From positions 5,020,402 through 5,084,401 of the forward strand of contig NZ_CP036264.1 in the NCBI RefSeq assembly GCF_008035925.1: a DNA stretch of 64,000 bases. The letters are read 5' to 3'. Source of the DNA: Stieleria maiorica (GTDB lineage: Bacteria > Planctomycetota > Planctomycetia > Pirellulales > Pirellulaceae). Positions 30,757-50,925 of this stretch are shown piece after piece (within the stretch, counting starts at the first letter, position 1; each line of letters opens with the position of its first letter). A program made the translations under genes and the position numbers. The notes beneath the pieces were generated by a model. It was not told where the DNA came from, made no database searches, and was given only the letters and a program-made list of their open reading frames with translations.

Positions 30757-31125
30757 CTCGTTCCAAGGCTCCGCCTTGGAACGCACTGCCACTGTGGTTC
30801 CTGCCACACACATCGCGTGCAACGCGAGGCGGAGCCTTGGCTGCGCAAAACCGTTCGATTCGTTGGCGTTTTCAATTTCGCAAAATCCGCTCGAGATCAG
30901 CCATTTGGCGCCAGCCGACGGGCTTCCTTAGACGCTGGGCCCGAGATTCTGAGGCCTCCGTACATGCCGGAGCCCGCACGCCTGCGCGAATCGGCTGATG
31001 TCACTCGTGTTTCATCAACCGATGGCATCGTGAGTCTTTCATCCGTCCCTGAATGATTTCGCCTGAATTCTGAACCATCACAGAATCCAGATGTTGCACG
31101 GCCCGGGGCAGAGCCAGGGAACGAG
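30757..31125 (-). repeat. Hairpin-rich intergenic repeat, family R1, long copy 1
   Basis: On the minus strand this copy runs parallel to the copy at 50535-50925. Shared in order are: a CTCGTTCCCTGGCTC start, an ATCTGG-ATTCTGTG-TTCAGAATT stretch, CGAAATCATTC, GAAACACGAG-GACATCAGCCGATTCGCGCA, GGCGCCA-GGCTGATC, GGCGTTTTC, CAAAACCG, and the terminal perfect hairpin with arms GTTCCAAGGC/GCCTTGGAAC around GGA (30760-30782). Identity looks like roughly three quarters by eye. It ends with a smaller hairpin TGTGG/CCACA at 30793-30808. No open frame is conserved between copies, so it behaves as a non-coding dispersed element. Confidence 0.8.
30896..30999. repeat. ATCAGCC/GGCTGAT-terminated inverted element inside R1 copy 1
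   Basis: This 104 bp block begins ATCAGCCATTTGGCGCC and ends GCGCGAATCGGCTGAT. Its ends are inverted repeats. Related blocks lie at 31873-32032 and 50689-50760. The ends are conserved while the interior varies, which is how miniature inverted-repeat elements look. Confidence 0.6.
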
Positions 31126-31188
31126 GCAATCGTCCTACCGCCGACGACGGCCCGGAAGGGCTATCGAACTGAACTTTCCCGCTTTGGA

Positions 31189-31731
31189 TCAGGCGGTGTG
31201 TGCGACTGCAGTGGCGGGGGCCGAACGCTTAACGCCAGAGAGTTCGTAGGCGCCGAACATCACGGCAACAAAACACAGGTCACCGGCGACCGTGTACCCA
31301 TAAAACGGGATCGCGTTGGTGAAGCAGGCGATCAGGCCCTCGGTCGTGGCCGGATACCATGGGCCCAACCAAACGCCGAAGTTGCTGACGACAAAGAAGA
31401 TCGTCGACGCGACCAGCGCGCCGGCGGGAAGGCGTCGCCAATGGACGCTCATGGCAGCTTGACTGCGAACCAGCCGGCCCAACGGAACGGCCAGCGTAAC
31501 GCCCAGGTACGTCGCTGCCATCACCATCGGGTTGTAGAAGCCCATGCCAGGCGTTCCCAACAAGTGCGACACGGCATCGCTGATCAACAGGGCCGCCGCC
31601 GGAACCAGATACGCCTTGCGGCCGGCAAAGTAACAACCGGCGAACAGTCCCAGTGCGCCCAGGCAGGCGAAGTTGGGAGGGTGCGGCATAAAACGGGTCG
31701 CGGCGATGGCCAGGGTCAGCAAGTAGATCAT
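31189..31731 (-). CDS. DUF6580-family integral membrane protein
   Basis: A 180-residue, five- to six-helix membrane protein. It carries RFMPHPPNFACLGALGLFAG near residue 12, ALLISDAVSHLLG near 47, FFVVSNFGVWLGPWYPATTE near 111 and CFTNAIPFYGYTVAGDLCFV near 135. These match the DUF6580 pattern as I know it. The family is uncharacterised; membrane topology resembles small transporter S-components, but no transporter partners are adjacent. The start is ATG 31731. R1 copy 1 ends 63 bp past its stop. No riboswitch-like structure is evident upstream. Confidence 0.8.
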   Translation of the reverse strand: MIYLLTLAIAATRFMPHPPNFACLGALGLFAGCYFAGRKAYLVPAAALLISDAVSHLLGTPGMGFYNPMVMAATYLGVTLAVPLGRLVRSQAAMSVHWRRLPAGALVASTIFFVVSNFGVWLGPWYPATTEGLIACFTNAIPFYGYTVAGDLCFVAVMFGAYELSGVKRSAPATAVAHTA

Positions 31732-31872
31732 TTTGCACCGATCGATGGGAGAGGCAAATCTCCCACCGTTTTAACGACTTGACGGTCCTTTCGAAAGTCC
31801 CATGGGAGCAGGCGTGCCTCGTCCGCCGCGAATTTCTGTGTCGATGCGTTCGGCACTCGGCCTGTTGATTGA

Positions 31873-32032
31873 ATCAGCCGTTTGCCGCGAGCCCAATGGC
31901 ACCTACTTCGATCACAAACTGAGCCGTAGGCGCTAGCCTCGGGCCTTATAAGTCTCGAAGCAATCCGAGGCCCGCGGCTAGCGCCGTCGGCTCATAGAGT
32001 AGGTGACATTGCGCTCGCGCGTGACGGCTGAT
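31873..32032. repeat. ATCAGCC/GGCTGAT inverted element enclosing an R2 hairpin
   Basis: It begins ATCAGCCGTTTGCCGCGAGC and ends GCTCGCGCGTGACGGCTGAT, the same termini as the R1-associated elements at 30896 and 50689. A complete R2 repeat (31909-31995) sits in the middle. Outer arms CACCTACT and AGTAGGTG flank the R2 core. The arrangement is nested: one element inside another. The gap 31732-32092 holds no gene. Confidence 0.6.
31909..31995 (+). repeat. Intergenic repeat family R2, copy 1
   Basis: CGATCACAAACTGAGCC, then GTAGGCGCTAGCCTCGGGCC, ending CCGAGGCCCGCGGCTAGCGCC and GTCGGCTCAT. The two halves pair as a long imperfect hairpin. The reverse complement of 33360-33448 is nearly the same sequence, including about 40 identical bases at one end. 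The two copies are inverted and bracket the gene at 32093-32974. Confidence 0.82.
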
Positions 32033-32045
32033 CCCACGTGGGATC
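32030..32045. other. Perfect 16 bp palindrome
   Basis: GATCCCACGTGGGATC reads the same on both strands. It lies 48 bp downstream of the stop of the minus-strand gene ending at 32093 and abuts the end of the nested repeat. It could be a protein-binding dyad, a transcript-end hairpin, or part of the repeat boundary. Confidence 0.5.
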
Positions 32046-32092
32046 GGATCAAATCAACAGGCCGCCGCGCGTCGCGTCAATCCTCGTCGCAG

Positions 32093-32974
32093 CTATTGCA
32101 AAATGGCGGTCGCAACGCCGACCGCAGTCACCTGTGATGCGACGGCTTTGCGCTGGTACGGCGGTCGCTGCTTGAGCGCCGGGGCACATGATCCGGCTCG
32201 GTAATACCCGAGGCTGTATTGGCACTCCGACGGCGGGCTGATCGCGGTCAGGTAGGGCAATGAAACCGCTTGAGCCAAGAACCGTCCGCCGCTGACCAGG
32301 GGCTGGAAACAGGAAAACCGCTGGTGGCCATGACGTTCCAACATCCGGTCCTCGAAGTACAGCGGATGGGAAAAGGTGTTGGCGGCGGCCCAGTGCCGAG
32401 CGGTCCAATGCCACGGCAGTCCGCGATCAAGGCCGGATTCGGGAAGCTGCACCAGCGGCGATGCTTCTCCTTGCCGAAAGCCGAGCGGAAGTTCCCCGTT
32501 ACCGATTTCCGAAGTCCCGGTTGTCAGCGCCTCAATCGGCGGCAGCACCAGTTTGCCGTCGGCCAATTCCGTCTGGCGATCGGCGAACAGGGACCGCCGG
32601 TTCACCTGATCTGCCGTCACTTCGGGGATCACGGTGCGGTCGGTAGAGACGTCTTCAGGAAGCGCGTCGACGGGATCGTTCAACACGTCGACTTGTGCGG
32701 GAGCGGCGGTCGTGGTGTCGGCGGCCTCGGCCGTCGGCGGTGTCTGCCCGTCACCTTGAACCAAAGCCGCGATCGTCAGCGGCGTGTTGTTGACGTAAGA
32801 GGGCAGCTCGCTCGATTCGGGGTCTGCGGCAACAACCGACGGTGCCGACGTGACCGTTGCGATCGCAAGACAAACGGCCGCCTTGGCTGCAACGGCCCGG
32901 CGTCGTTTGGCGGTCAGCGCACACTTTGCCGATCGCGGCGTTTGCTGTGACTTATTCGTTCGATTCCAAAACAT
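32093..32974 (-). CDS. Secreted planctomycete-specific protein, unknown function
   Basis: About 293 residues from ATG 32974, which has a purine-rich GCGAGAAA upstream; a TTG at 33007 would add 11 residues. The basic start and the hydrophobic stretch AKAAVCLAIATVTSAPSVVA, ending near residue 50, make a signal peptide. A Thr/Ala/Asp-rich linker follows. A compact C-terminal region (about 190-270) has HWAAANTFSHPLYFEDRMLE, FLAQAVSLPYLTAI and PPSECQYSLGYYRAGSC. I have the impression that this PLYFED/YxLGxYRxGxC block recurs in planctomycetes, but no function is known. The gene is bracketed by inverted R2 repeats. Confidence 0.75.
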   Translation of the reverse strand: MFWNRTNKSQQTPRSAKCALTAKRRRAVAAKAAVCLAIATVTSAPSVVAADPESSELPSYVNNTPLTIAALVQGDGQTPPTAEAADTTTAAPAQVDVLNDPVDALPEDVSTDRTVIPEVTADQVNRRSLFADRQTELADGKLVLPPIEALTTGTSEIGNGELPLGFRQGEASPLVQLPESGLDRGLPWHWTARHWAAANTFSHPLYFEDRMLERHGHQRFSCFQPLVSGGRFLAQAVSLPYLTAISPPSECQYSLGYYRAGSCAPALKQRPPYQRKAVASQVTAVGVATAILQ

Positions 32975-33222
32975 CGTGTTTCTCGCATGCTCCGTTTTGA
33001 CGGACAACCAGATTCAATCCCATTATCTGGTTCGACCGATCGGATTCGAAACGAGACTAAACACGCCAGAACACCGACAACAGGAGCAAACGGCAACACA
33101 GGTTCGACCGCGACGATGGGAACGACAGGGGCAATCGCTGCAATCGTCAGGGTTTGCCACGATCCGATGCGGTTGGACGGATTCCGGGATATGGGGTGTG
33201 GCGACTTGGGGGGCGACACCGC

Positions 33223-33342
33223 CTCACTCCCGGGCTCCGTTTCGGGAACGGAAATTTCTAGAGGCTCCGCCGCGGGGCTGGATGTCCGTGTGTGGCAGGA
33301 GCCACACCTGCAGTGCGTTCCAAGGCGGAGCCTTGGAACGAG
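33223..33342 (+). repeat. Intergenic repeat family R1, short copy 2
   Basis: Short form of R1: a degraded first hairpin (33223-33251), GAGGCTCCGCC, then the perfect hairpin GTGTGGC-AGGA-GCCACAC (33290-33307) and the perfect hairpin with arms GTTCCAAGGC/GCCTTGGAAC around GGA (33317-33339). It lacks the roughly 250 bp central part found in the long copies. It sits in the 480 bp gap between the secreted-protein gene and msrB, which contains no gene. Confidence 0.8.
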
Positions 33343-33359
33343 GAGATGGCATCTACTTA

Positions 33360-33448
33360 ATGAGCCGACGGCGCTAGCCGCGGGCCTCGGATAGCAATTC
33401 GAGCCCCGTAAGGCCCGAGGCTAGCGCCTACGGCTCAGTTTGTGATCG
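33360..33448 (-). repeat. Intergenic repeat family R2, copy 2
   Basis: Near-identical inverted copy of 31909-31995. Its terminus lies only 6 bp past the msrB stop (33455), so the long imperfect hairpin (GAGCCG-CGGCGCTAGCC paired with GGCTAGCGCC-CGGCTC) would form at the very end of the msrB transcript. It could serve as that gene's terminator or 3' stabiliser. Confidence 0.82.
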
Positions 33449-33454
33449 AAAGGC

Positions 33455-34093
33455 TTATTCTTTCGCGGCGGACGCTTTCGTTTTGGAATTCGATTTCGGC
33501 TTTTCCGACTGCTCTTCGAATCGCAACGCGGCGCTGTTCAGACAATAGCGTTTGCCCGTCTTGTCTTTGGGTCCGTCGCCGAACACATGTCCCAAGTGGG
33601 CTTTGCAGCGGCTGCAGTGAACCTCCTGGCGCGGATAAATCAATTTGAAATCAAGCTTCATGCCGATGCGGTCGGCGCTGATCGGGTCATAAAAACTCGG
33701 CCACCCGGTTCCCGACTTGAATTTCGTTTCGCTTGAGAACAGGGATTGGCCGCAGACGATGCACCGATACAGACCTTCCTTCTTGTTGTCCCAATACTTG
33801 TTCCGAAACGCCGGCTCGGTCTCTTCGTTCTGCGTCACTTTGAACTGGATCGCCGACAGCGATTTCTGCAATTCGGAGACGGATTTCGGCGTGTACGGCG
33901 GGTCCTCGATTTCATCCTCGGAATCTTCGTGCGTCCCATCGGGCAGCGCGTCGCCGGTCGCCTCTTGGGCAGCCGGATCATCGCCGGCTGGATTCTGGCC
34001 TGCGGCTGGTCGCAGCCCCGCCACTGTCAATACAGCTGCGATGACCGCGACGAAGGTCCACTTGCCGTAGACTTCATTGATTGATTGGTTCAT
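33455..34093 (-). CDS. msrB: Peptide-methionine (R)-S-oxide reductase MsrB, exported
   Basis: A 212-residue protein. A signal peptide (hydrophobic VAVIAAVLTVAGLRPAAG, residues 14-31) and an acidic linker precede the MsrB domain, about residues 70-195. Motifs are YRCIVCGQSLFSSETKFKSG, GTGWPSFYDPI, CSRCKAHLGHVFGDGP and GKRYCLNSAALRF. The two CxxC pairs bind structural zinc, and the Cys of RYCLNS is the catalytic nucleophile. It reduces methionine-R-sulfoxide in proteins, here probably in the periplasm. No MsrA domain is fused or adjacent. The C-terminal tail is Lys/Ser-rich. Start ATG 34093. Confidence 0.93.
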   Translation of the reverse strand: MNQSINEVYGKWTFVAVIAAVLTVAGLRPAAGQNPAGDDPAAQEATGDALPDGTHEDSEDEIEDPPYTPKSVSELQKSLSAIQFKVTQNEETEPAFRNKYWDNKKEGLYRCIVCGQSLFSSETKFKSGTGWPSFYDPISADRIGMKLDFKLIYPRQEVHCSRCKAHLGHVFGDGPKDKTGKRYCLNSAALRFEEQSEKPKSNSKTKASAAKE

Positions 34094-34155
34094 GGTGACT
34101 CCAACGATTCAGTCAAATAGTTCGCTATCATCAATCCGGCCTTCGCCGTCCCACT

Positions 34156-35106
34156 ATGGTTGATTCTATGCCGGTCGTCCAGTTAAACGCCGTTTCCCTG
34201 CATTACGACCGCGATAAGGTCTTGGACGAAATCAGTTTTTCCGTCTCCGAGGGCGAATACGTCGTGATTTTAGGGGCCAGTGGGTGCGGAAAAACTTCCT
34301 TACTGAGAATGATCGCCGGGCTGGTTTCCCCGTCGTCGGGTACGATTTTTTTGGCCGGCCGTGACGCGACCCGAATCGCCCCGAGACACCGCGACGTCGC
34401 CTTGGTGCCCCAGCACGACGGGCTGTACCCGCACCTTTCGATCGGGCGGTCGATCGGCATGGCGATCCGCGACCGCGTCACCCGCAGTGAGCAGCGATTA
34501 CGGATTCTTGATGCGGCACAGAAGGTGGGCTTGGAAGCGTACCTGGACCGGCTCCCCGAACAGCTGAGCGGCGGCCAACTGCGTCGCGCCGCGGTCGCCA
34601 AGGCAATCGCGCGACGGGCCGCGGTGAGGTTATTGGACGAACCCTTGTCGGCGATCGATGCGAACTTGCGGTTCCAAATCGAAAAGGACCTGGTGAGCTT
34701 GCACCATCAATCCTCCGGCGTCACGTTGCACGTAACGCATGACGGCGCCGAAGCGATGCGACTGGCAACGCGTGTGGCCGTCGTCGAAAACGGCAAGATC
34801 GCCCAGGTCGACACGCCGGATCGATTGCGTGCCAACCCCGCGACCCCCGGTGTGGCCGCCGCGCTCGGCCGATCCGAATTGATCACCGTGCCGGTGCGAC
34901 GTGTTGACGACGCGTGGATCGGTGGGGATGGCCAACGCGTTTCAGGACCGGAGGCGCCGGTCGGTGCATCGGCAACGTTGGCGTACTTTGAAGAACACTT
35001 GGTGGACCAATCCGGCGATGCCGCCAGTGCCAGCTCCACACGTTGGCTCGATCGCCAGCGCAACGCGACCGTCGATCATGATCGCTTGCTCTGGTTCCTC
35101 CCGTAG
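34156..35106 (+). CDS. ABC transporter ATP-binding protein (MalK/PotA-like), orphan
   Basis: A 316-residue ABC ATPase; an alternative ATG is at 34168. Walker A is ILGASGCGKTSLLRMIAG, Q-loop VALVPQHDGLYPHLSI, signature LSGGQLRRAAVAKAIARRA, Walker B AVRLLDEPLSAID and switch LHVTHDGAEAMRLATR. The order is complete, so it should hydrolyse ATP. After residue about 225 a short C-terminal domain (VPVRRVDDAWIGGDGQRVSG) resembles the TOBE/OB region of MalK-type importers. No permease or binding-protein gene is adjacent on either side, which is unusual for this subfamily. Its partners must be encoded elsewhere, or it has another role. Confidence 0.88.
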   Translation: MVDSMPVVQLNAVSLHYDRDKVLDEISFSVSEGEYVVILGASGCGKTSLLRMIAGLVSPSSGTIFLAGRDATRIAPRHRDVALVPQHDGLYPHLSIGRSIGMAIRDRVTRSEQRLRILDAAQKVGLEAYLDRLPEQLSGGQLRRAAVAKAIARRAAVRLLDEPLSAIDANLRFQIEKDLVSLHHQSSGVTLHVTHDGAEAMRLATRVAVVENGKIAQVDTPDRLRANPATPGVAAALGRSELITVPVRRVDDAWIGGDGQRVSGPEAPVGASATLAYFEEHLVDQSGDAASASSTRWLDRQRNATVDHDRLLWFLP

Positions 35107-35245
35107 CGGAACTCGCCAAGAGTTTCGCACGGTGCGCGAGTCATCCCGTCGTCCTAATCGTTGGTTAAACGGTAGTGGACGACTCAAGGAGTCCTGGCAG
35201 TTCGCAATCCCCGATGGACTCGTCGCCTCGTCCACTACGTGAAAG

Positions 35246-36685
35246 CTATGCGTTTGCGGCGACGGGCAGATCGGCGACTTGGTAGGCGCGCGAGCGGAAC
35301 AGGAAATCGATGATGTTTCCTTCGTGCGGTTGCAACCAGTTCAAACGATTCGTCGGAATCGGGCCGAAGTTGACGCGATCGATGTCCACACACGCCCCGG
35401 CCGCGGCGACCAGCTCGGGGTCGCGGGTCAGCACGGTGCCGACAAGGGTCGGGCCGATGCGTCGCAGCATCTCGGCTTGCGGGCACTCCACCACGCTGAC
35501 AAACGGGAACATGTATTCTTTCATCGCCACACCGCGGTCGGGCGAATCGGCATGGACGACCATCGGCCGCAAGTAGGCACAGTGCTCGCGCTCGATCAAT
35601 TTGTCCCCGTACTCGGCGGTCATGTCCGTCACACCGCTTTCGGACAAGTCTTGCTGGACCATCGCATGGGTTCCGGTCGCCATCGCGGGAACGGTGAAGG
35701 CCGCCAGTTGGGCGTTGTCATCGATCGGCGGCAGCACGTCGACCGGTCCGATCCGCTTGGCGATCGCTGCGGCAATCTCGCGGGTGTGCCGGCTGGCCCA
35801 AATACCGCTGCAATTGATGCACGACCGCCCCGAGTTGCTGAGCACGCTTTCGACCATCACGTCCAGATACAGTTCCCAATCGTCGACCACGTCATCGCCG
35901 ATCAGGATCTTGGACCAACCCGGTCCGTGGGCCTGCACGCGAGGATTGCCGGCATGTTGGGCGACCGTTTCGGCGCTGCCAAAAATCATGCTCCGCGGCG
36001 TCTTGGTCATGATCGCACCACCGGCATCGTGGCCGCCCGGATACAATCCGAACGCCTCGGCCGGAACGCCGGCTTGGATAAATGCCGACACCATTCGGTA
36101 GGGCGTCCAAGGCTCCTGGGACCCCGGTTTCAGTGCGAGCCCGATTTGCAGCGGGATCGCGGGCAACCAAAGCGTGTGAACGCCCGGTGAATTGTTCGGC
36201 AGGATCGCTCCCAGGACGGGCGTTTGGGCCTGGTAACTGACGATCACGCCGCGGCCTTCTTCACCGAACCCCTTGCTCAGGATGTTCAGGTCCAAACCGC
36301 GGGTCAGGCAATCCAGGATCTCGTCGATGTGACTGAGGACGAAGCTGTTCTTTTTCAAATTCGATCGACACATGTGCTCGGGCAACCCGGTGCTGGCCGA
36401 TTGCTGGTGCACAAACTGATCGACCGATTGCATCGAGTCGCCGACGGGCAACTCTGCGGTCTCGAACAACTCAGCCGCCTTCTTTGACATCGCGATCAAT
36501 TCGTCGGTGGAATGTTTCAGCAGCGCCGCGCGAGCCTTGTGGGCCTGCTTCATGTCGCGGGCAACGATGCCGCCGCCGACGCTGCCGAACTTCGCAATCG
36601 GCTCGCCGGTATCAAAGTGCACGACGTCTTTAATTTCCATCGACTCGTAGGGCTTGCCCCAGCGAAGCGGCTGTAATGTGATCAT
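35246..36685 (-). CDS. Aldehyde dehydrogenase-fold acyl/aryl reductase
   Basis: About 479 residues from ATG 36685; the extra 28 codons upstream are poorly structured. Typical ALDH features: PVLGAILPNNSPGVHTLWLP near residue 160, KPGSQEPWTPYRM near 190, FGSAETVAQHAGNPRVQAHG near 240 and the nucleophile in NSGRSCINCSGIWAS near Cys 288. Instead of the Glu-containing ELGGKS of hydrolytic ALDHs there is HGPGWSKILIGDD, as in CoA-acylating or LuxC-type reductases. The next gene upstream encodes an AMP-forming ligase-like protein. The pair may therefore reduce an activated carboxylate to an aldehyde with NAD(P)H. Substrate unknown. Confidence 0.8.
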   Translation of the reverse strand: MITLQPLRWGKPYESMEIKDVVHFDTGEPIAKFGSVGGGIVARDMKQAHKARAALLKHSTDELIAMSKKAAELFETAELPVGDSMQSVDQFVHQQSASTGLPEHMCRSNLKKNSFVLSHIDEILDCLTRGLDLNILSKGFGEEGRGVIVSYQAQTPVLGAILPNNSPGVHTLWLPAIPLQIGLALKPGSQEPWTPYRMVSAFIQAGVPAEAFGLYPGGHDAGGAIMTKTPRSMIFGSAETVAQHAGNPRVQAHGPGWSKILIGDDVVDDWELYLDVMVESVLSNSGRSCINCSGIWASRHTREIAAAIAKRIGPVDVLPPIDDNAQLAAFTVPAMATGTHAMVQQDLSESGVTDMTAEYGDKLIEREHCAYLRPMVVHADSPDRGVAMKEYMFPFVSVVECPQAEMLRRIGPTLVGTVLTRDPELVAAAGACVDIDRVNFGPIPTNRLNWLQPHEGNIIDFLFRSRAYQVADLPVAANA

Positions 36686-36844
36686 GTCTGTTGAAGTGGA
36701 GGATAGGTGGTGGGCGGGTGAGGATCGAAGGGGACAATAACGGCGGAACGACTCGCCGGTCAGGTTCACGCGTGACGACAGGCAGGAAGCCTATCCCTTG
36801 GGGAACCTGACAGGCGGGGAGCCTCTTCCACAAATGTCGTCGGG

Positions 36845-37978: not shown

Positions 37979-38144
37979 TCTTTTTTTAATCTCGCGGGGC
38001 GGTGATGGAACAGGCGGGAAGTGTGACCTGGGGTGACGACTCCAGACAACTCATTTCCGTCAATCGTGAAGGACCCTATTGTTGCCTTCTGGAAAGTGCG
38101 ACGAAAGATCCCCGGCCCGCTGGAAACTGCATTTATCGAGAACG

Positions 38145-38177
38145 AAAAAAGCCGCACGTGGCACACGCGCGGCTTTT
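38145..38177 (-). terminator. Intrinsic terminator of the secreted-protein gene at 38215
   Basis: GCCGC and GCGGC arms with a further partly paired ACGTG/CACGCG section; on the minus strand the hairpin is followed by TTTTTT. It lies 38 bp beyond the stop of the gene at 38215-39351. The AAAA/TTTT flanks on both sides make it potentially bidirectional. Confidence 0.75.
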
Positions 38178-38214
38178 GGACCATTTGTTAGAGTCGGATT
38201 TTCTGATCTAGTGG

Positions 38215-39598: not shown

Positions 39599-39728
39599 CT
39601 CGTTCCCCGGCTCTGCCTGGGAACGGGGTTCTAACGGGGGTCTCTAGAGGCTCCGCCTTGAGATGCATATCCGTGAGTGTGGCGGGAGCCACACGAGCAG
39701 TGCGTTCCAAGGCGGAGCCTTGGAACGA
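39599..39728 (+). repeat. Intergenic repeat family R1, short copy 3
   Basis: The short form is complete: CGTTCCCCGGCTCTGCC with pairing GGGAACG, GAGGCTCCGCC, perfect hairpin GTGTGGC-GGGA-GCCACAC (39677-39694), perfect hairpin GTTCCAAGGC/GCCTTGGAAC around GGA (39704-39726). A further partial repeat of the last hairpin's first arm follows at 39752-39770 and runs into the stop region of the gene at 39772. The remainder of the 39352-39771 gap has no gene. Confidence 0.82.
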
Positions 39729-39771
39729 GGTGGGAACGAGGCGGAAATTGCAGTGCGTTCCAAGGCGGAAA

Positions 39772-40965
39772 CTAGGGCGTGATCGGGCTGGTCACCGGCG
39801 GAGTGGAAAATGCGTCGTCGTCGTCCGAGGAACTGGCTGCGAACGCGGCGCCGGCCGCTGCGAAGCCCAACACGGGGACCAAACTGCCGCGGCCGCCGAC
39901 GCCTCCCCCGGCTCCGCCGCCGCCTGCTCCGCCGCCGCCGACGGGCGCGCCTTCCATCGACGCCGCTTCAACGGGCAGCCCCGGCTCGCCGGGCGGAACG
40001 AGTTCGGCTTGTTGCGGTTCGTCTTCAATCAGCTCCTCAATCGCAGGTGACTCCAATCCACTCGGGGCAAGCTGCAGCTCAAACTGCGGTTGGAACATCG
40101 GTTCCTGGACGGCAACCAACCGTCGGCCGTCGCCGGCGGGTTCGCTGCTGGCGAGAACATCTTCGACCAGTTGGAATCCGAGCACACCGATTCCGTCGGG
40201 GCCGATGGCGATGACCGAGTAAAACCCGGGGGGCAACGAGTCGATCGAGAAGCTCCCGTCGACCTCGGTGATCGCCTGTCCGATCAGCTCGCGATTTTGA
40301 TAGAGCAAAACGTTCGTGCCGGCGGCGCCGTTCAGCTGAGCATCGGCCGCACCGGCGCGATAAATGCGTCCCGCCATTCCGCTGGCCGTTTGGGCGACCC
40401 GATAGGTGTGATCGGCACGAAGCTCGGTCATCATTTTCGCCCCGTGGGAACCGTCAAATTCGGCCACAAACGGAATCGTCGACGGCATGTACCGGATGAC
40501 CGAGTTTCTGACTTTGTTCACACGCAGACTGGCGGCGGCGATCTCCATTTGATGATGCCGCGCCTCGATCTTCTGATCGCCGGCTGCGACCACATGAACC
40601 GCGTAGCAGGCGACGAGATTCGGGCCGCGGGTCACCAAGGTGTAGACTCCATCCGGCACACCGACAAAGGAATACTTAAAATTCGATTCCGCCGACGGCT
40701 GCGCCCGGTAAATCGCCCCCTCTTGTGAGACCAAGGCGATACGAATGCTGCCCGCCGGGAGGCTGTCTGCTTCGACGTCCGGCGCTACAATCACCGCATC
40801 GAGTCGACCTTCGGCGTCCGCGGCGACCCACTGTTGGACCACCAAATGCTGGCCGTCACCCTCGGCGGATGCTACCGCATCGGTTAATACCAGCGTTGCC
40901 AAAACCAAAATGGCCGGCGTCAAATTGCTTCGCACGGACGACAGGGATAGAGAAAAAGTACGCAT
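39772..40965 (-). CDS. Secreted protein with carboxypeptidase-regulatory-like domains and Gly-rich tail, paralogue B
   Basis: A 397-residue paralogue of the downstream gene product. The signal peptide is around residues 15-34 (ILVLATLVLTDAVASA). LVVQQWVAADAEGRL, YTLVTRGPNLVACYAVHVVA, VRNSVIRYMPST, AGRIYRAGAADAQL and YSVIAIGPDGIGVLGFQLV follow in the same order as in paralogue A. The tail has GGGGAGGGGAGGGVGGRG, then a hydrophobic helix VPVLGFAAAGAAFAA and an Asp cluster DDDD. Between the second sandwich and the tail lies a Glu/Pro-rich linker absent from paralogue A. The two lie head to tail, separated by an R1 repeat, so they probably arose by tandem duplication. Function unknown. Confidence 0.85.
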   Translation of the reverse strand: MRTFSLSLSSVRSNLTPAILVLATLVLTDAVASAEGDGQHLVVQQWVAADAEGRLDAVIVAPDVEADSLPAGSIRIALVSQEGAIYRAQPSAESNFKYSFVGVPDGVYTLVTRGPNLVACYAVHVVAAGDQKIEARHHQMEIAAASLRVNKVRNSVIRYMPSTIPFVAEFDGSHGAKMMTELRADHTYRVAQTASGMAGRIYRAGAADAQLNGAAGTNVLLYQNRELIGQAITEVDGSFSIDSLPPGFYSVIAIGPDGIGVLGFQLVEDVLASSEPAGDGRRLVAVQEPMFQPQFELQLAPSGLESPAIEELIEDEPQQAELVPPGEPGLPVEAASMEGAPVGGGGAGGGGAGGGVGGRGSLVPVLGFAAAGAAFAASSSDDDDAFSTPPVTSPITP

Positions 40966-44023: not shown

Positions 44024-44239
44024 GCCCTGAGCTTCCCTAGGCCGCGACCTCGGTCACCCTTCGATCGTGAAGGAGGATCACATCGAATGATGAAGTCAAT
44101 CGCGAGCAGTCCAAACGGAAGCCCCCCACCAAGGTCACTCAGGCTCACTACGTCATAAACCGTGAGAAACCTTGTCCAAGAGTGGGTATCGGTGGCAGAG
44201 TTGGTAAACTTTGACGGTTCTGCCAATAATTCTGGAGTT

Positions 44240-45028
44240 CTATCGAGTTCGCCAGCTGGGCGTAAAAATCGGCCGCTTGGCGGCGTCGACCAGCGGCTGC
44301 GGTGGCGTTTCCGATGGCCGTGAAACCGAAGTTTCGTCGCGTTTCACGCCGCCGGCTTTCACACCACTGACCAGTTCAGCGATCGTCGTTCCGGTCGCAA
44401 ACGGGGCGGACTGGGAAACGTGGACTTCCCAGGCGGACAACCCGCCGGCATCCGAGGAAGACTGCACGTCGCCGCCCGCTTCGATCTCAGGCAGTTCCAA
44501 TTGAGGCCCGTCCAACTCTGGCACCTCCAACTCCGGCTCAGCGGCCGGCTCGGGCAGCGGATCGCTCCCGGTGTCGTGACGGGACGGCAGCGGCTCCGTT
44601 TCCAGCATCTCCACCTCCGCCGCGACTCCCGCCGACCGATCACTTGGGCGACGCGGTCCGACGTTCAGCGCGTGGTACGGCTTGGGATAAAAGTAATGCT
44701 GTTCCAGCCGCAGATGTTTCTTGGGCGGCTCGTATCCGCCGGAGTGGACGGCACGATGCCACGCCATCGCTTCCTGGCTGGTCGGGGCGATCAAGTACGC
44801 CAGCTTGCCGCCCAGGTAGGTCGGGCGGTTATAGACGCGTCGATAGCTAGGATGCAATCGATTGCCCAGCGGGCCGATCAAGTCGATGCGCGGTCGAACC
44901 GTCTGGTTCTCGCGGTCGGGATGATGCGCGGCGGCAAAGCTGGTCATCACGACCGTCAAGGCGGCAAACGCAGCGGCGCGGCGCGACTTGGCCAATGCCG
45001 AAACGCAGTTCAAATCAAGCTGAATCAT
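44240..45028 (-). CDS. Secreted Pro/Glu-rich protein, unknown function
   Basis: A 262-residue protein. The signal peptide comprises AAAFAALTVVMTSFAAA, with cleavage near residue 34. The folded part, about residues 40-125, has RPRIDLIGPLGNRLHPSYRR, YLGGKLAYLIAPTSQEAMAW and LRLEQHYFYPKPYHALNVG. It is followed by a low-complexity acidic region (PEPAAEPELEVPELDGPQLE) and a short C-terminal stretch. I recognise no family; the first part looks like a planctomycete-specific domain. It is divergent from the GAF/SpoIIE-like gene, with 293 bp between the starts holding no other gene. The 216 bp gap toward the TolC-like gene is also empty. Confidence 0.72.
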   Translation of the reverse strand: MIQLDLNCVSALAKSRRAAAFAALTVVMTSFAAAHHPDRENQTVRPRIDLIGPLGNRLHPSYRRVYNRPTYLGGKLAYLIAPTSQEAMAWHRAVHSGGYEPPKKHLRLEQHYFYPKPYHALNVGPRRPSDRSAGVAAEVEMLETEPLPSRHDTGSDPLPEPAAEPELEVPELDGPQLELPEIEAGGDVQSSSDAGGLSAWEVHVSQSAPFATGTTIAELVSGVKAGGVKRDETSVSRPSETPPQPLVDAAKRPIFTPSWRTR

Positions 45029-45321
45029 TGGGACATCCTTTTCCCGGGAACAATCGCACTAACCCTGCCTTTATGTTCGACCGGGACAGTCGCTCTGTGC
45101 TGGATTTCGCTTTGAGCACCAGTTGCGACGTTGCTAACGATCATTCCGGCAAAGGGCGGCTGGCTGGCAAACTCCGGAAACTTTGCTGGCAAATCCGTTC
45201 AGCGCGATTGCGATCGATGACGATTCGATCCCCTACGGCAAGGATCGCCAGACAGCGTTCGACTCGGGATTCCGATCGATTTCATCCGTCATTCGCTTTC
45301 CATTTGCCAGAGCAGATTCTC

Positions 45322-46827
45322 GTGAGCACACCTGTACCGTCCTACCTTCGACTTCATCTGGGCGAAGACGCTCAAACCACCGCCCGCCCCGGCCAGTCTT
45401 CGAGCGACCAATTTTGGAGTGCCTTCTCCGCGGCGACGGGATGGCGGATCGACGACCGCCACAAGGCCGAAGGCGTGCAGGTCTTGCCGGCGGTGCAAAT
45501 GGATGTGATGGCCAACGATCCGGCCGAAGCCCAGCCTCCGGTGGTCAAAGAATCCGCAACCGAGCTGGCCAGCGTGGCGCGGGCGATGGCCAGCGAGATC
45601 GAGGAGTTGCAATCGCTGGTCCGCCGCCAAGAAATCGAACTGGCAAGCCTCGCGACCGTCCAGTTTTCCCCGACCCGCAGCGAGGCGGCCTCCGATGCGA
45701 TCCACCAAACGTTGCAACGGGCGATCCAGGCGACCGGATTCGATGCCGCCGCGGTCTACATGCTGGACGAGGAGACGCAATATTTGAAGACGCGCGTGGT
45801 GGTCGGATTGCCGGCGGATCGATTGAAGAGCGAACCGCGGATGTTGCGCGGCAGTCGCGCCGATCTGGAAGCGATGGTCCAGGACGCGGTGTTGATGGAT
45901 GACCTGCAGGGCCATCTGGCAGAGACATGGAATGCGCCGGAGCCGTTCGGTGCGGCCGTTTGCACGGCGATCTACAAGGGCGATTTGCCGATCGGCACGC
46001 TGTGGTTGTTTTCCGACGCCCCGAAGGAATTGGATGAGTCGTATTCGGCGATCGCGCAAATGGCGTCGTCACAGCTCACGCTGGAACTTTCTTCGGCCGC
46101 CCAGGTCCGCCGCGAACAACGCAATCGCAGTTCGGTCGAAGCGGTCACCGACATCGCCTCGTGGCAATACTCGTCCCTGCCGGTCGGCAAACTGTTGGCG
46201 CCGGGATGGTTGGTCGACGGGATGATCGAATCACCGCATGACTGGTCGACCGGTTGGCACATGTGGGATGTCCTGCCCGATGGCTCGTTGATCCTGGCGA
46301 TGGCCGAGGCCATGGACTCGCATGCCGGTGGAGCGATGATCGCCGCGACCGCTCGGGCGGCCCTGACGGCGCACAGTGGTTATCAACACACACCCCACCA
46401 GATGCTTCAGCGGATCAACGACACCTTGTGGGAAACCAACACCGCCGACCAGTTGGTCTCGCTGCTCTACGCCCGTTTGAATCCGGAAACCGGTCACGGG
46501 GAACTGGCATCGACCGGCGACATCGCAGGGTTGATTGCCGGCAAGTACGGCTATCGCCCCCTGACACAGTCGGGCGGAAAACCGCTCGGCACGGCGCTGA
46601 ACATCGAGTGCTTCGAGTCGGAATTCCGATTGGCCGAGGGGGAAACGCTGGTCGCCTATGGGGCAGGTTTGGCATCGGACGGCATCAGCCAGGAATTGGT
46701 GGGATGCTGCATGCGATCGGCCCTCCAGAGTGACCAAAACGCCTTGGCAGTGCTGCGTCGTGAAATGGCAGGTTTTCCCAATCGTCACGAGCGTGGGCTT
46801 TTGTCGCTTTCACGGCGAAGCAGCTGA
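45322..46827 (+). CDS. GAF plus degenerate SpoIIE/PP2C-like protein (probable pseudophosphatase)
   Basis: About 501 residues from GTG 45322; the longer frame starts inside the divergent neighbour. After a coiled coil (ELASVARAMASEIEELQSLV) a GAF domain spans about 100-255 (LQRAIQATGFDAAAVYMLDE, GAAVCTAIYKGDLPIGTLWL). A SpoIIE/RsbU-like domain covers about 280-490. The usual metal-binding landmarks are altered: GGDxYD is GWHMWD near 311, GDVxGHG is AEAMDSHAG near 327, AGHxPP is TGDIAG near 398, and YTDGxxEA is YGAGLASD near 446. It therefore probably lacks phosphatase activity and may bind ligands or partner proteins. An intact PP2C lies two genes downstream. Confidence 0.78.
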   Translation: MSTPVPSYLRLHLGEDAQTTARPGQSSSDQFWSAFSAATGWRIDDRHKAEGVQVLPAVQMDVMANDPAEAQPPVVKESATELASVARAMASEIEELQSLVRRQEIELASLATVQFSPTRSEAASDAIHQTLQRAIQATGFDAAAVYMLDEETQYLKTRVVVGLPADRLKSEPRMLRGSRADLEAMVQDAVLMDDLQGHLAETWNAPEPFGAAVCTAIYKGDLPIGTLWLFSDAPKELDESYSAIAQMASSQLTLELSSAAQVRREQRNRSSVEAVTDIASWQYSSLPVGKLLAPGWLVDGMIESPHDWSTGWHMWDVLPDGSLILAMAEAMDSHAGGAMIAATARAALTAHSGYQHTPHQMLQRINDTLWETNTADQLVSLLYARLNPETGHGELASTGDIAGLIAGKYGYRPLTQSGGKPLGTALNIECFESEFRLAEGETLVAYGAGLASDGISQELVGCCMRSALQSDQNALAVLRREMAGFPNRHERGLLSLSRRSS

Positions 46828-47006
46828 TTTTTTTACCGCAGCGGTCCACAAATGCGGGGATAAAATCGGTATGCTGTGAAAGTAGCACCCGCTGGCGAGG
46901 GTACCCTCTGATGACCGCGGCGCGAGCGCCAGAGGGTTGACGCGTCCGAAGCGACACTGTGACCCCCATCGGGTCCGTCCCAGACCCTACGAGATCCCTG
47001 TTTCCG

Positions 47007-47612
47007 ATGACAACCAATCCCACGCTGCGCGACCTTGTTTCTCCGATCGAACAGCGCTGGAGCCCTTACCGGTTCGCCCCCCGCCCGGTCGAGCAAGAAA
47101 AGCTCGCCCAGTGTTTCGAAGCCGCCGCCTGGGCGGCGAGCAGTTTTAATGAGCAACCCTGGCGTTGGATCGTCGCCCACCGCGAGCAGAGCGATGAGTT
47201 TCAAAAGATGCTCGGCTGCTTGATGGAGGCGAATCAAGCCTGGGCGGCCAATGCCGGCGTCCTCGTCCTGACCGCCTACCGACGCACGTTTTCACGCAAC
47301 GAGAACCCGAATCGTGTCGCGCTGCACGATCTGGGTCAGGCCGCCGCCCATTTAGCCCTCCAAGCCGCCGCGATCGGATTGCAGGTCCATCAGATGGCGG
47401 GGGTGAATCTCAGTCAAGTCCGCACCGAATACCAGGTCCCGGATGAATTTGAACCGGCGACCGCGATCGCGATCGGCTATCCCGAAACCTCCGAGCCGAG
47501 CGATGAAAACGCCCGGGAGTTGGCCAAACGCGAGGCATCGGCGCGACAACGTCAACCACTTTCCGAACAGGTGTTCAGCGAGTCATGGGGACGCTCGATC
47601 GGTTGGAAATGA
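47007..47612 (+). CDS. Nitroreductase-family flavoprotein
   Basis: About 201 residues from ATG 47007 (an upstream GTG would add 16). RWSPYRFAPRPVEQEKLAQC, AAWAASSFNEQPWRWIVAHR near residue 45, HDLGQAAAHLALQAAAIGLQ near 115 and AIAIGYPET near 155 match the nitroreductase fold: the FMN phosphate/ribityl-binding Arg and Ser region, then the GLxxHxM helix (here GLQVHQMAG). The family reduces quinones, nitro or ene substrates with NAD(P)H. The gap upstream contains the palindrome GAGGGTACCCTC (46897-46908) and a CCCTCTG/CAGAGGG stem. Substrate unknown. Confidence 0.87.
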   Translation: MTTNPTLRDLVSPIEQRWSPYRFAPRPVEQEKLAQCFEAAAWAASSFNEQPWRWIVAHREQSDEFQKMLGCLMEANQAWAANAGVLVLTAYRRTFSRNENPNRVALHDLGQAAAHLALQAAAIGLQVHQMAGVNLSQVRTEYQVPDEFEPATAIAIGYPETSEPSDENARELAKREASARQRQPLSEQVFSESWGRSIGWK

Positions 47613-47713
47613 TTCAACGACGATCAAATCCAAATACAATAACAATTCGCGGCCGCTCAGCGGCCACAGCCAATCAACTCTGCATTAAATCATCTCAGCT
47701 GGATAAACCATCG

Positions 47714-49042
47714 GTGTCGGAATCTTGGAACCCTGGAGTCGTCTGCGCCTCACGCACCGACGTCGGCATGCGCCGAACCAACAACCAGGATTCGTACTCC
47801 GTGATCCCGGCCCAGTCGCGCGAGCGGTTCGACAATCGCGGACACTTGTTCATCGTTGCCGATGGCATGGGGGCACACGCCGCCGGAGAATTGGCCAGCA
47901 GCATGGCTGCCGAGCTGATCGCGATGAACTACTTTCGCGGCGCCATCCCCGACGCGAAGAATTCACTGCACGTCGCGGTCGCCGAAGCCAACGCGGAAAT
48001 CTACCAGCGTGGACAGCAGAATCCCGAGTTCCACAACATGGGGACGACCGCCAGCACGTTGGCATTGCTGCCGATCGGCGGAATCATTGCCCATGTCGGC
48101 GATTCTCGCGTCTACCGACTGCGGCGTGGCGTGTTTGAACAGATGACCTTCGACCACTCACTGGTCTGGGAAGTCCAAGCCAGTGGGCAGGTGCATCCCG
48201 ACAGCGCGCTCGGCCAGGCGCTTCCGAAAAACGTCATCACCCGATCGCTGGGTCCGAATTCGGAGGTGCAAATCGACATCGAAGGCCCCTTCGAATTGGA
48301 ATTGGGCGACAAGTTCCTATTGTGCAGCGACGGGTTGTCCGGGCAGGTCGATGACGTCGAAATGGCGACCTTGTTGGATTGTTTGCCGGAACAATTGGCG
48401 GTCGAGGTGTTGGTCGATCTGGCCAATCTTCGCGGCGGCCCGGACAACACCACGATCGTCGTGACCACCGTCACCGAAGGCCCGTTGATCGATGACAAAA
48501 AAGCTCCTGCCAAACCCGTCTCCGAAGACGCATCCGCTTATCGTGGCATGGTCGTCTCGCTAGTGGTCGCCGTCCTTCTGGCGATCCTGTCGGTCGTGTT
48601 CCTATTCCTGCGACTCAATGACGGGGTGATGATCATCACGCTCTTGGGCGCGTTGATCTCCGGCGTCGTCGCCGCCACCTTTTATTCCAACTTGAAGAAA
48701 CAGACGCGGCGGCGCACCCTGTCCGGCTGTGGCGAACGCGGCGGGATTCCCAAAGCCTACGGCGGCAACGCCCCGTATCGCCGCTACATGGCCAAACCGG
48801 ATCAAACGCTTTTTGACCGGCTGGGAAAAACGGTGGCCGAATTGCGCGAGGCTGCGAAACTGAAGAACTGGATGATGGATTGGCAACAGATCGACCAGTT
48901 TCAACAAGACGGTTTGGCAGCGATGGGGCGTGGCGACGGAAAGACCGCGATTCATCTGCAAGCCAAAGCGATCGTCGAAACGATGAATCAATTGCGCGAA
49001 CAACACAACCGCTCGGCCGACGAAACTGCCATCGATCACTGA
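47714..49042 (+). CDS. PP2C-family protein serine/threonine phosphatase with membrane helices
   Basis: About 442 residues from GTG 47714; the longest frame begins within the nitroreductase gene. Intact PP2C motifs: GMRRTNNQDSYSV near residue 20, FIVADGMGAHAAGELAS near 46, MGTTASTLALLPIG near 110, IAHVGDSRVYRLRRG near 122, FLLCSDGLSGQVDD near 200 and LRGGPDNTTIVVTTV near 240. The Asp residues for the two metals are present. After residue 275 come two hydrophobic helices (VVSLVVAVLLAILSVVFLFL and IITLLGALISGVVAA) and a cytoplasmic tail. The enzyme probably reverses Ser/Thr kinase action at the membrane; planctomycetes carry many such kinases. A histidine kinase gene starts 4 bp downstream. Confidence 0.9.
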   Translation: MSESWNPGVVCASRTDVGMRRTNNQDSYSVIPAQSRERFDNRGHLFIVADGMGAHAAGELASSMAAELIAMNYFRGAIPDAKNSLHVAVAEANAEIYQRGQQNPEFHNMGTTASTLALLPIGGIIAHVGDSRVYRLRRGVFEQMTFDHSLVWEVQASGQVHPDSALGQALPKNVITRSLGPNSEVQIDIEGPFELELGDKFLLCSDGLSGQVDDVEMATLLDCLPEQLAVEVLVDLANLRGGPDNTTIVVTTVTEGPLIDDKKAPAKPVSEDASAYRGMVVSLVVAVLLAILSVVFLFLRLNDGVMIITLLGALISGVVAATFYSNLKKQTRRRTLSGCGERGGIPKAYGGNAPYRRYMAKPDQTLFDRLGKTVAELREAAKLKNWMMDWQQIDQFQQDGLAAMGRGDGKTAIHLQAKAIVETMNQLREQHNRSADETAIDH

Positions 49043-49046
49043 TGCC

Positions 49047-50489
49047 GTGAATCAGCCCCCTGTCCGTCTCGCCATCCCGCTGCTTCCCTCCGCCCGACTC
49101 GGTTCTTCGGCCTGGCTGCTGCATCTACGCTCATTTGCCGTTGCCGGGCAATTGGTGACCATCTTGTTGGCCGGGTGGGGAATCGGTGTCCAACTGCCCT
49201 ACGCACCGCTGCTGGGGTTGGTCGCGCTGACCGCCGTCACCAATCTGATCTACGGCGTGTGGCTGCGGCGCTACAACACCCCGCAACAGCAGACGCATCG
49301 CATCGTCGGGCGCCGGGCCGAAGAATCCCCGGTCTCGGAATCAATGCCGCCCAATCCCGCGCGCCTGGATTCCGATCAAGAGCTGGCGGCGCTGGAACAT
49401 GATGGGTCGCCGCAGGTTCAGAAGGTCGCGCTGGGGTTGATGTTGCTGGACCTGGCCACTCTGACCGCGATGCTTTACTACAGCGGCGGTGCGGCGAATC
49501 CGTTCAGTTTTTTTTACTTCGTCAATCTCGCCGTCGGCGGAGTGATGATCTGGCCCAAGGCCGCTTGGTCGTTGACCGTCGTCGCCACGCTCGGCTACGC
49601 GCTGATTCTGCGTTACAGCGTTCCCGTGAAAGAACTCAGCAGCGAAACCGTCTCGGGAGGATTTGATCTTCGCACCGGCGGACTGATGTTGGCCTTCGGC
49701 ACCTGCGCGTCGGTCGTCACCTACTTCGTCACCCGAACCAGCGGTCTGTTGCGGGCGCGCGAACGCCAGCTGCGCGAATACCAACTGGCCAAAGCCGCCG
49801 ATCGCAAACTGGAATCGCTGACCACTTTGGCCGCCGGCGCGGCACATGAACTGGCCACCCCGCTTTCGACCATCGATGTCGTCGCCCGCGAATTGTCACG
49901 CCACCTGGAAGGCGTCGATAAACCAGTCACGGTCGACCAAGATTTGAAACTGATCGACCATCAACTGGATCTGTGCCGACACATTCTGCAACGCATGCGC
50001 GGCGCCGCCGGCGACTCGATGGCACAAGAATGGTTTCGCACGACCGTCGGCGAACTGATCGACGCCACACTGGAAGGCGTACGCGACCCGCACCGGGTGG
50101 ACGTCGTCGATGGAACCGAAGCGGTCGAAAACAAGACGCTATGGATGCCCGAAGAAGCAGTCGCCCAGGCGATCCGCAATCTGATCCACAACGGCCTTGA
50201 TGCCAGCGGGGCCGAGGGCCGTGTGCGGGTCGAATCGAGACTCGACCGACGGAATGTCGAATTCATCGTGACCGACCAAGGCCAAGGGATGACCGATGAA
50301 GTCCTCGGCCGCGTCGGCGACCCGTTCTTCACCACCAAAGAACCCGGTCGCGGCATCGGCCTGGGGCTCTACTTGACCCGCAACGTCGTCTCTCAACTCG
50401 GCGGATCACTCAGTTTTCGCTCCGCCCCCGGCCAAGGCACTTCGGCGGTGGTCACCTTGCCGATCGCCAAACCGGAAAACGTGCCGTAG
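49047..50489 (+). CDS. RegB/PrrB/ActS-like redox-sensing histidine kinase
   Basis: A 480-residue sensor kinase from GTG 49047, 4 bp after the PP2C stop. About six hydrophobic segments lie in residues 25-240, including SGGAANPFSFFYFVNL near residue 147. This contains the GGxxNPF quinone-site heptapeptide of the RegB family. The H-box is GAAHELATPLSTIDVVAREL near 265, and a cysteine follows at LDLCRHILQRM near 309, where RegB has its redox-active Cys. ATP-binding boxes: AIRNLIHNGLDASG, VTDQGQGMTDE, GRGIGLGLYL. RegB proteins sense quinone redox state and phosphorylate RegA. No response regulator is adjacent. It is insulated from a large soluble insert after residue 85 (about 45 residues). Confidence 0.88.
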   Translation: MNQPPVRLAIPLLPSARLGSSAWLLHLRSFAVAGQLVTILLAGWGIGVQLPYAPLLGLVALTAVTNLIYGVWLRRYNTPQQQTHRIVGRRAEESPVSESMPPNPARLDSDQELAALEHDGSPQVQKVALGLMLLDLATLTAMLYYSGGAANPFSFFYFVNLAVGGVMIWPKAAWSLTVVATLGYALILRYSVPVKELSSETVSGGFDLRTGGLMLAFGTCASVVTYFVTRTSGLLRARERQLREYQLAKAADRKLESLTTLAAGAAHELATPLSTIDVVARELSRHLEGVDKPVTVDQDLKLIDHQLDLCRHILQRMRGAAGDSMAQEWFRTTVGELIDATLEGVRDPHRVDVVDGTEAVENKTLWMPEEAVAQAIRNLIHNGLDASGAEGRVRVESRLDRRNVEFIVTDQGQGMTDEVLGRVGDPFFTTKEPGRGIGLGLYLTRNVVSQLGGSLSFRSAPGQGTSAVVTLPIAKPENVP

Positions 50490-50534
50490 GGATGGTGCTA
50501 TCTAGCCTTTAGGCGTCTGCCCCTTCACCCGTCG

Positions 50535-50925
50535 CTCGTTCCCTGGCTCCGCCTGGGAACGGGAGTTCTTGGAGGCTCCGCCTGGGCTGCGCGAGATCTG
50601 GAATCTGTGGTGATTCAGAATTTGAACGAAATCATTCCGCATGGATGGTCGACTCGCAGCAGACATCGGGCGACGAAACACGAGCGACATCAGCCGATTC
50701 GCGCAAGCGTTCGGGCCCCGGCGTCTAGGAGGGCCCGTAGGCTGGCGCCAAACGGCTGATCCCAAGAGGGTAACGCGGAATCGAAAACGCCAAAATCCTA
50801 CGGACGAAAACGCGAACAATTCGGACGGTTTTGTGCAGCCCCGGCTCCGCCTCTCCAGGGGCACAACGCCGCGTGTGGCGGGAGCCACACCGAAAGTGCG
50901 TTCCAAGGCGGAGCCTTGGAACGAG
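50535..50925 (+). repeat. Hairpin-rich intergenic repeat, family R1, long copy 4
   Basis: Inverted relative to 30757-31125 and the longest copy. It starts with the hairpin CGTTCCCTGGCTCCGCCTGG/GAACG and contains the ATCAGCC/GGCTGAT element (50689-50760). It ends with GTGTGGC-GGGA-GCCACAC (50873-50890) and the GTTCCAAGGC/GCCTTGGAAC hairpin (50900-50922). It fills most of the 528 bp gap between the kinase gene and hemL; the rest holds no gene. Confidence 0.82.
50689..50760. repeat. ATCAGCC/GGCTGAT-terminated inverted element inside R1 copy 4
   Basis: A 72 bp block starting ATCAGCCGATTCGCGCAAGC and ending GGCTGGCGCCAAACGGCTGAT (last 21 positions, key ends shown). It is the reverse-oriented relative of 30896-30999, with a shorter, altered centre. 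Confidence 0.58.

Follow-up and report, generated by a model that had tools for sequence, protein, structure and literature searches.

Four copies of an intergenic, hairpin-rich repeat, named R1 here, occur in a 64,000-nucleotide stretch of the genome of the planctomycete Stieleria maiorica (NZ_CP036264.1, positions 5,020,402 to 5,084,401; this whole stretch, at 5.02–5.08 Mb of a single-contig genome of 9.89 Mb, is called the window). They raise the question of what these repeats are and which enzyme has spread them. A first-pass annotation had likened them to repetitive extragenic palindromes (REPs), bacterial interspersed mosaic elements (BIMEs) or miniature inverted-repeat transposable elements (MITEs) that a REP-associated tyrosine transposase (RAYT) encoded elsewhere could mobilise. 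This reading is now supported: an intact RAYT gene lies in the same genome amid units of a sister subfamily, and hairpins flank every examined locus of its clade. R1 is best read as a REP/BIME-like system whose units have four hairpins and lack the GT[AG]G foot and whose RAYT is close to subclass 2.6, and very probably as a non-autonomous, MITE/BIME-like mobile repeat processed as single-stranded hairpins by the RAYT of its own genome.

The R1 unit and its copies

Alignment of copies from across the genome shows that R1 is a unit of four hairpins (H1–H4). Its length varies from 116 to 131 bp among 40 units, a spread that fits the absence of a conserved reading frame. In the unit consensus, H1 is CTCGTTCCC(A/G)GGCTCCGCCTGGGAACG, H2 consists of the apex AGGCTCCGCCT atop a short, variable stem, H3 is GTGTGGC(N)GGAGCCACAC and H4 is GTGCGTTCCAAGGCGGAGCCTTGGAACGAG. 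H1 and H2 have a pyrimidine-rich apex on the top strand (T-type) and H3 and H4 a purine-rich one (A-type), so that the unit is itself an inverted repeat. Its ends are sharp (CTCG on the left, CGAG on the right) and its termini form the inverted repeats CTCGTTCC/GGAACGAG, which resemble MITE ends. The base just outside is C on the left in 28 and G on the right in 38 of the 40 units, array members included, and the flanks beyond this base are weakly skewed. The outer foot is (C)CT ahead of CGTTCC; the GT[AG]G tetranucleotide of canonical GTAG REPs was not found at the outer feet of the consensus.

The perfect GTTCCAAGGC/GCCTTGGAAC pair previously attributed to all four window copies is present at each site (30760/30773, 33317/33330, 39704/39717 and 50900/50913). 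Matches to the 10-mer with at most one mismatch number 18 in the window against a shuffled mean of 5.2, none of 100 shuffles reaching 18. The description of a two-hairpin element has to be replaced by one of four hairpins per unit, the two first noticed being H3 and H4, the best preserved in the window.

The possibility that only the window copies exist does not hold. Across the 9.89 Mb genome there are 89 perfect hairpins and 192 occurrences of a looser form of the outer hairpin, with no occurrence of the reversed-pattern control in either case. A covariance model was built from 32 of the 40 units, leaving out the window copy, further array members, one unit whose orientation was ambiguous and another in which a segment was duplicated. 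This genome-wide search, which the annotation had proposed, gave at least 150 matches at E≤0.01, corresponding to whole or partial units at 104 sites. These sites comprise 81 single units and 23 clusters of 2–5 units, all of the clusters same-strand and with a spacing of 126–300 bp.

The outer hairpin covaries across genomes. In a hand-picked set of 23 hairpins with 3-nt loops (18 distinct; 20 from RAYT flanks, two from locus L112 and one from the window), the stem is 98.5% paired, 6 of 11 pairs have changed on both sides, and 19 such cells were counted against 4.6 after shuffling (0/500 shuffles). The upstream unit of locus L206 has even had its apex replaced (AAGC...GCTT) in all four hairpins. 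Copies within the S. maiorica genome are much alike; there, the covariation score was reached by 2/500 shuffles and the number of both-side pairs by 9/500.

A RAYT clade flanked by the hairpins

Two small Y1-like genes emerged from a scan of hairpin-holding loci: that of L059 has R1-type hairpins immediately on both sides, and that of L134 lies next to such hairpins. Used as a query over 40 genomes, most of them picked for holding the hairpin, the L059 protein found matches in 30, including an intact S. maiorica homologue with 60% identity (L191, at 1964418–1964951, 3.1 Mb from the window). This protein is a RAYT according to the NCBIfam model NF047646 (REP_Tyr_transpos; 100.7 bits for a cut-off of 80), as is that of L187 (95.1 bits). 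It has no match to PF01797 (Y1_Tnp) at E values up to 1 and a weak phmmer similarity to TnpA-REP 4er8 (E=0.0021); an initial PF01797 search of the genome had missed it. The gene is surrounded by repeats of about 127 bp that are a sister four-hairpin unit.

Hairpins of the family type were found on both sides of the gene in 22/22 non-redundant loci of the clade, the arrangement of a REPtron (in S. maiorica, with the sister subfamily). Excluded from these 22 were repeats of the same gene (L202, L205, L239–L243 and L252), L190, L204, which is cut by a contig end, and a second gene of genome G459 (51%). Stems of at least 10 bp lie on both sides in 20 of the 22, versus one of nine divergent Y1 controls, whose hairpin is of unrelated sequence; a narrower scan for GGC-apex hairpins found none at the nine control loci. 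The control flanks begin at match ends, some of the matches being partial. No 10 bp stem with a 3–5 nt loop was found in the first 20 kb of the window. In the family sample, which was not chosen by hairpin, all ten complete RAYT loci have flanking hairpins, and all ten belong to the 22.

Classed by the hairpins closest to the gene on its upstream and downstream sides, 14 of the 22 loci are T/A, four T/T (S. maiorica among them), two A/T and two A/A. The excess of a T-type hairpin upstream with an A-type one downstream is significant (p=1.4e-4 against 25%). These 14 loci, which do not include that of S. maiorica, have the order H1H2-gene-H3H4. The T/A loci include those of Oscillatoria PCC 10802, Microcoleus vaginatus, Desulfonema magnum (broken gene) and a Salinivibrio kushneri plasmid. 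This flank order suggests that the short unit equals both ends of a gene-bearing element.

Two loci of the clade are worth describing in their own right. In Desulfonema magnum (L207), the RAYT gene is broken into two overlapping pieces, still bracketed by H1/H2 and H3/H4. L189 and L190, from metagenome-assembled genomes (MAGs) named as different planctomycete orders (KatS3mg111 and KatS3mg105), agree in their RAYT locus, down to the positions of the hairpins, possibly as a result of recent transfer or of a binning error.

At least 120 named stretches were listed as holding the hairpin, among them stretches of Planctomycetota, Cyanobacteria and Desulfobacterota as well as single MAG contigs labelled Neomarinimicrobiota and Euryarchaeota that may be misbinned. 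Within Planctomycetota the family is patchy, as the strict hairpin occurs in two of 294 sampled genomes, that of S. maiorica and one with a single sequence outside the repeat family. Among 149 genomes of the taxonomic family, the hairpin is present in 17 (as a single occurrence in five), the clade RAYT in 11 and both in nine; the repeat is thus present in 9/11 RAYT-bearing versus 8/138 RAYT-less genomes (p=1.5e-8). In the 14 genomes of the genus, hairpin counts are 192, 132, 103, 16 and 0 with the RAYT and 33, 3 and seven zeros without it (p=0.011). Genome G467 appears to be Rhodopirellula sp. SM50; the coordinates of its RAYT equal those in G444, the genome of L076.

Among 72,556 plasmid records, three match the RAYT at 1e-20. 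One is the Salinivibrio kushneri plasmid NZ_CP114587.1 (L359), whose RAYT shares 51% identity with that of the planctomycete and is flanked by family-like hairpins of the CTCGTTCCCACGC type; no family-like hairpins were found with the two Bacteroidota plasmid matches (34–35%). Phages gave no RAYT match at 1e-15. In a tree of 17 of 20 RAYT proteins (L195, L197 and L207 contain stops and were left out) with two outgroup rows, 2 of 16 inner branches are well supported and one outgroup row is placed inside; given this poor support, no transfer route is claimed.

IS200/IS605 insertion sequences and their short derivatives combine a Y1 HUH enzyme and hairpin ends with the absence of target duplication. 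The R1 system shares all three traits with them, its gene lying between left and right ends in 14/22 loci, and differs from them in having two hairpins per end and one RAYT match per genome in 11 genomes of the taxonomic family (two in G459).

Its closest relatives appear to be the REPtrons of RAYT/TnpA-REP subclass 2.6 (group 5 of Bertels). According to the sections of PMC6006769 that deal with them, their proteins are defined by the motifs NH[LIV]H, WQ, YIH[QN]NP and SS, a size of about 179 aa and a long HUH-Y spacing; they come mostly from Bacteroidetes, and their structures are weaker and were found by manual inspection. The S. maiorica protein has NHLH, WQ, YIHHNP and SS, 178 aa (median of the subclass, 179) and an HUH-Y spacing of 79 (82 in the subclass), and by these features it is predicted to be close to this subclass. 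Atypical, non-GT[AG]G flanking hairpins with copies elsewhere in the genome are also common to both. Unlike what these sections describe, the hairpins here are strong, number four per unit and form tandem arrays, the hosts are Planctomycetota, Cyanobacteria and Desulfobacterota, and YIHHNP falls outside YIH[QN]NP. TIRtrons, as treated in the part of PMC3733652 that concerns them, likewise bracket a tyrosine transposase gene (TIRYT) with double palindromes, some copies of which form repeat families, and the same part mentions many tyrosine transposase genes and double-palindrome repeats in R. baltica; yet 20 of 26 TIRYTs fall in subclass 2.1 with helix-turn-helix tails in the relevant section of the 2018 paper (PMC6006769), unlike the 178 aa protein considered here. 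Finally, the REPINs and BIMEs of Escherichia coli and Pseudomonas, to judge from the portions of PMC8049555 and PMC8266576 that describe them, share inverted hairpin pairs, a RAYT-dependent copy number and probable single-strand processing, and differ in their GT[AG]G foot and in two hairpins per unit instead of four. Set against the REP and TIR families as far as these four papers present them (PMC6006769, PMC3733652, PMC8049555 and PMC8266576), R1 is different enough to count as a new variant. Literature searches with R1 sequence strings gave no title on this repeat among the matches listed.

Insertion sites and the spread of R1

The genomic context was examined for 99 of the 104 sites, with four window sites and one that was not fetched on its own left aside. 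R1 is a palindromic, high-copy repeat of intergenic regions, 97 of the 99 sites lying between called genes, one overlapping a gene and one being undefined. The gaps are tandem in 59 cases, convergent in 31 and divergent in 7, versus 77, 14 and 37 background gaps of the same loci, which makes R1 significantly rare between divergent genes (7/97 versus 37/128, p=2.5e-5). Called 3' ends lie at a median distance of 53 bp and called 5' ends at one of 169 bp; the value for 5' ends is overstated because the codon-usage gene finder picks the best-scoring start and tends to trim starts. This placement agrees with that given for REPs in the corresponding part of PMC3733652. No replication-strand bias was apparent, the two halves giving 31+/26- and 26+/21-.

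Target duplications, which the annotation had proposed to look for, do not exceed chance at the 45 of 81 single sites analysed, the others having no recognisable edge or lying outside the fetched loci: matches of 3 bp are seen at two sites (shuffled mean 4.5), and longer ones of 4–9 bp at none. In lacking target-site duplication, the insertions at these sites match the IS200/IS605 type.

Two window sites can be compared with the relative G464, in which no RAYT was detected and whose sequence is 86–90% identical there. At the position of copy 1 (30757), G464 carries a degraded R1, and at that of copy 2 (33223) it carries 45 bp that resemble a degraded H1 by eye and are a possible remnant. The sites at 39599 and 50535 are not collinear within the G464 stretches compared, and in the stretches fetched for two array sites (4.81 and 4.90 Mb) and for the L307 site no corresponding position could be mapped. 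The degraded copy and the possible remnant suggest, although two sites are few, that these insertions are older than the split from G464 and have decayed in its RAYT-less lineage, in agreement with the higher REPIN numbers of RAYT-bearing E. coli strains given in the pertinent part of PMC8049555.

Taken together, the spread of R1 by the RAYT can be viewed as follows. In the unit of about 120 bp, the two ends of a RAYT-encoding element from which R1 probably descends would be fused, the left end having H1 outside and H2 inside and the right end H3 inside and H4 outside. By analogy with TnpA-REP and IS200/IS605 enzymes, the RAYT would bind the R1 hairpins on single-stranded DNA and cut at the conserved CTCG...CGAG outer feet. 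The freed unit would then be joined at new places without target duplication, and slippage or recombination would subsequently yield head-to-tail arrays. Copies would persist mainly downstream of genes, where they may do least harm.

Several observations weigh against this model. The RAYT of S. maiorica is flanked by units of the sister subfamily and not by R1; whole units lie downstream of it and a degraded one upstream, so that this T/T locus does not sit within one unit. Twelve of the 22 loci lie outside the unselected family sample and at least nine of these twelve belong to genomes that were selected by hairpin, a choice that favoured the flank result. Hairpins occur in genomes in which no clade RAYT was detected (33 in G466, 15 in G436, 5 in G317, 4 in G350, 3 in G464 and 1–2 in others), most of these genomes being drafts of 150–420 contigs. 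Conversely, G376 and G355 have the RAYT without the strict hairpin pattern, their units having other stems or 4-nt loops. The loci and the genomes are related, which makes the p-values optimistic. Covariation within the S. maiorica genome is mixed, as cells changed on both sides were matched by 57/500 shuffles. Finally, no transposition was observed, no clean empty site was found by comparison with G464, and the two comparable window insertions look old against this relative.

These points have to be weighed together with other explanations of R1. The host might keep the repeat as a structural element of RNA or DNA, such as a stabiliser of mRNA 3' ends, a terminator or a protein-binding site, spread by the RAYT being past history. 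The short distance to 3' ends, the depletion between divergent genes, the agreement in orientation with tandem flanking genes (40/59, p=0.009) and the folding of one unit as DNA (z -7.5) and of another as RNA (z -6.7), far better than that of shuffles, are all in keeping with such a role. A mobile repeat that avoids promoters would account for the same context, though, and the tandem arrays and a patchy distribution that tracks the RAYT (at most 3 hairpins in 9 of the 14 genomes of the genus) speak against this explanation, which is unlikely. Less probable still is the idea of dead relics, whose copies would today arise through nothing but gene conversion and duplication, be it segmental or tandem. 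Head-to-tail clusters at 23 of the 104 sites and the old look of two window insertions would suit such relics; against this, 81 sites hold single units, the flanks of the 40 aligned units share little past one base per side, and strict hairpins number 192, 132 and 103 in RAYT-bearing members of the genus versus 3 in RAYT-less G464.

Another transposase is a very improbable source of R1. The candidates would be the four genes L016–L019, Y1 genes of S. maiorica found with PF01797, or a DDE transposase using the CTCGTTCC ends as terminal inverted repeats. Inverted unit ends like those of MITEs (CTCGTTCC/GGAACGAG) and the very existence of other Y1 genes would speak for it. However, most DDE elements duplicate their target, unlike R1 at the 45 single sites, and hairpins of the R1 type accompany all 22 clade RAYTs examined. 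L016–L019 were set aside as mobilisers: a reading of the flanks of L016 and L017 and a scan of those of L018 and L019 did not show R1; no stems of at least 9 bp (loops 3–8) were found at these four loci. L016 and L017 lie beside other repeats, of the GCCCGAAGGGCT type, and the gene of L018 adjoins tandemly repeated sequence; S. maiorica therefore hosts several RAYT/IS200-type systems.

Processing of R1 by its own RAYT thus remains the preferred reading. A further step can be proposed tentatively, being somewhat less likely than not to be right: the unit may be the smallest form of an element that is still mobile, spreads horizontally and has the RAYT gene between H2 and H3. The clade would move between phyla and onto the Salinivibrio plasmid together with its hairpin ends, seeding large non-autonomous populations, and any change of specificity in a RAYT lineage would be accompanied by a joint drift of stems and apex in all four hairpins. 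The relevant part of PMC8049555 takes the contrasting view of RAYTs as domesticated genes that make no copies of themselves. Either way, a conspicuous hairpin repeat of several phyla is tied to one transposase clade. Four-hairpin ends with covarying stems would offer a new type of substrate for structure recognition by TnpA-REP without a GT[AG]G guide. S. maiorica, G465 and SM50 on the one hand and G464 and G463 on the other form natural matched genomes with and without the RAYT, in which enzyme loss and repeat decay could be followed.

The window copies and neighbouring repeats

Copies 2 and 3 are short forms on the forward strand, identified by sequence and by a model match. Copy 3 (39599–39729) has all four hairpins recognisable, with H1 at 39601–39625, H3 at 39677–39694 and H4 at 39703–39727; a truncated H4-like fragment, absent from the first-pass annotation, lies next to it on the same strand (39749–39776). 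In copy 2 (33223–33342), H1 and H2 are degraded, H3 (GTGTGGCAGGAGCCACAC) lies at 33290–33307 and H4 (CGTTCCAAGGCGGAGCCTTGGAACG) at 33316–33340. The GTGTGGC/GCCACAC hairpin is perfect in copies 2–4 and degraded in copy 1, just as first described. A known RNA family was discarded as the identity of R1, the window giving no Rfam match at gathering score.

The two other copies are long forms. Copy 4 (50535–50926, forward strand, sequence and model match) consists of H1 (50537–50561), the 5' half of H2, a repeat named R2 that is nested in H2 (50584–50842, ends approximate), H3 (50873–50890) and H4 (50899–50923). Copy 1 (30757–31127, reverse strand), likewise split by R2, has a perfect H4 (30759–30783) and a degraded H3 read directly in the sequence (30793–30808); the model match at 5051158–5051260 (-) spans this H4/H3 half. 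Its R2 occupies about 250 bp (30839–31104 on the reverse strand, from the alignment, with approximate ends set by eye).

The central segment of about 250 bp was rightly said to be alignable between copies 1 and 4 in opposite orientation (79% over 80 nt and 83% over 72 nt); it is not an integral part of the element. A genome-wide search with the centre of copy 4 (251 bp) gave 48 matches to this segment in its own right. Among 12 R2 copies read, R1 sequence lies on both sides in six (L217–L220, L222 and L228), on one side in three (L221, L226 and L227) and not clearly on either side in three. The left junction of R2 is in H2 for copy 4, L218 and L220 and in H1 for L219. Since R2 exists independently, is flanked by R1 sequence in many copies and has its junctions inside H1 or H2, the long form is an R1 unit interrupted by a second dispersed repeat. 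The R2 insert ends resemble GGGCTGCGCAAAA.../...TTTTGCGCAGCCC, and GGCTCCGCCT is found on both sides of R2 in L217, L219 and L220.

A third dispersed repeat, R3, which contains GGCGCTAGCC, forms an inverted pair about 90% alike at 31907–32009 and 33346–33450, the first copy lying inside sequence that resembles R2; it has many further matches in S. maiorica and G464. A composite of R2-like sequence and R3 of about 275 bp (31809–32084) has no counterpart in the close relative G464, where the region is collinear. Tandem 17 bp repeats (CTCCAAAATCTTCTTAC) occupy 52482–52605, with an inverted partner upstream, and a similar CTACCTCCAAAATCTTCCTACCTC stretch occurs in G464 at the site of R1 copy 1.

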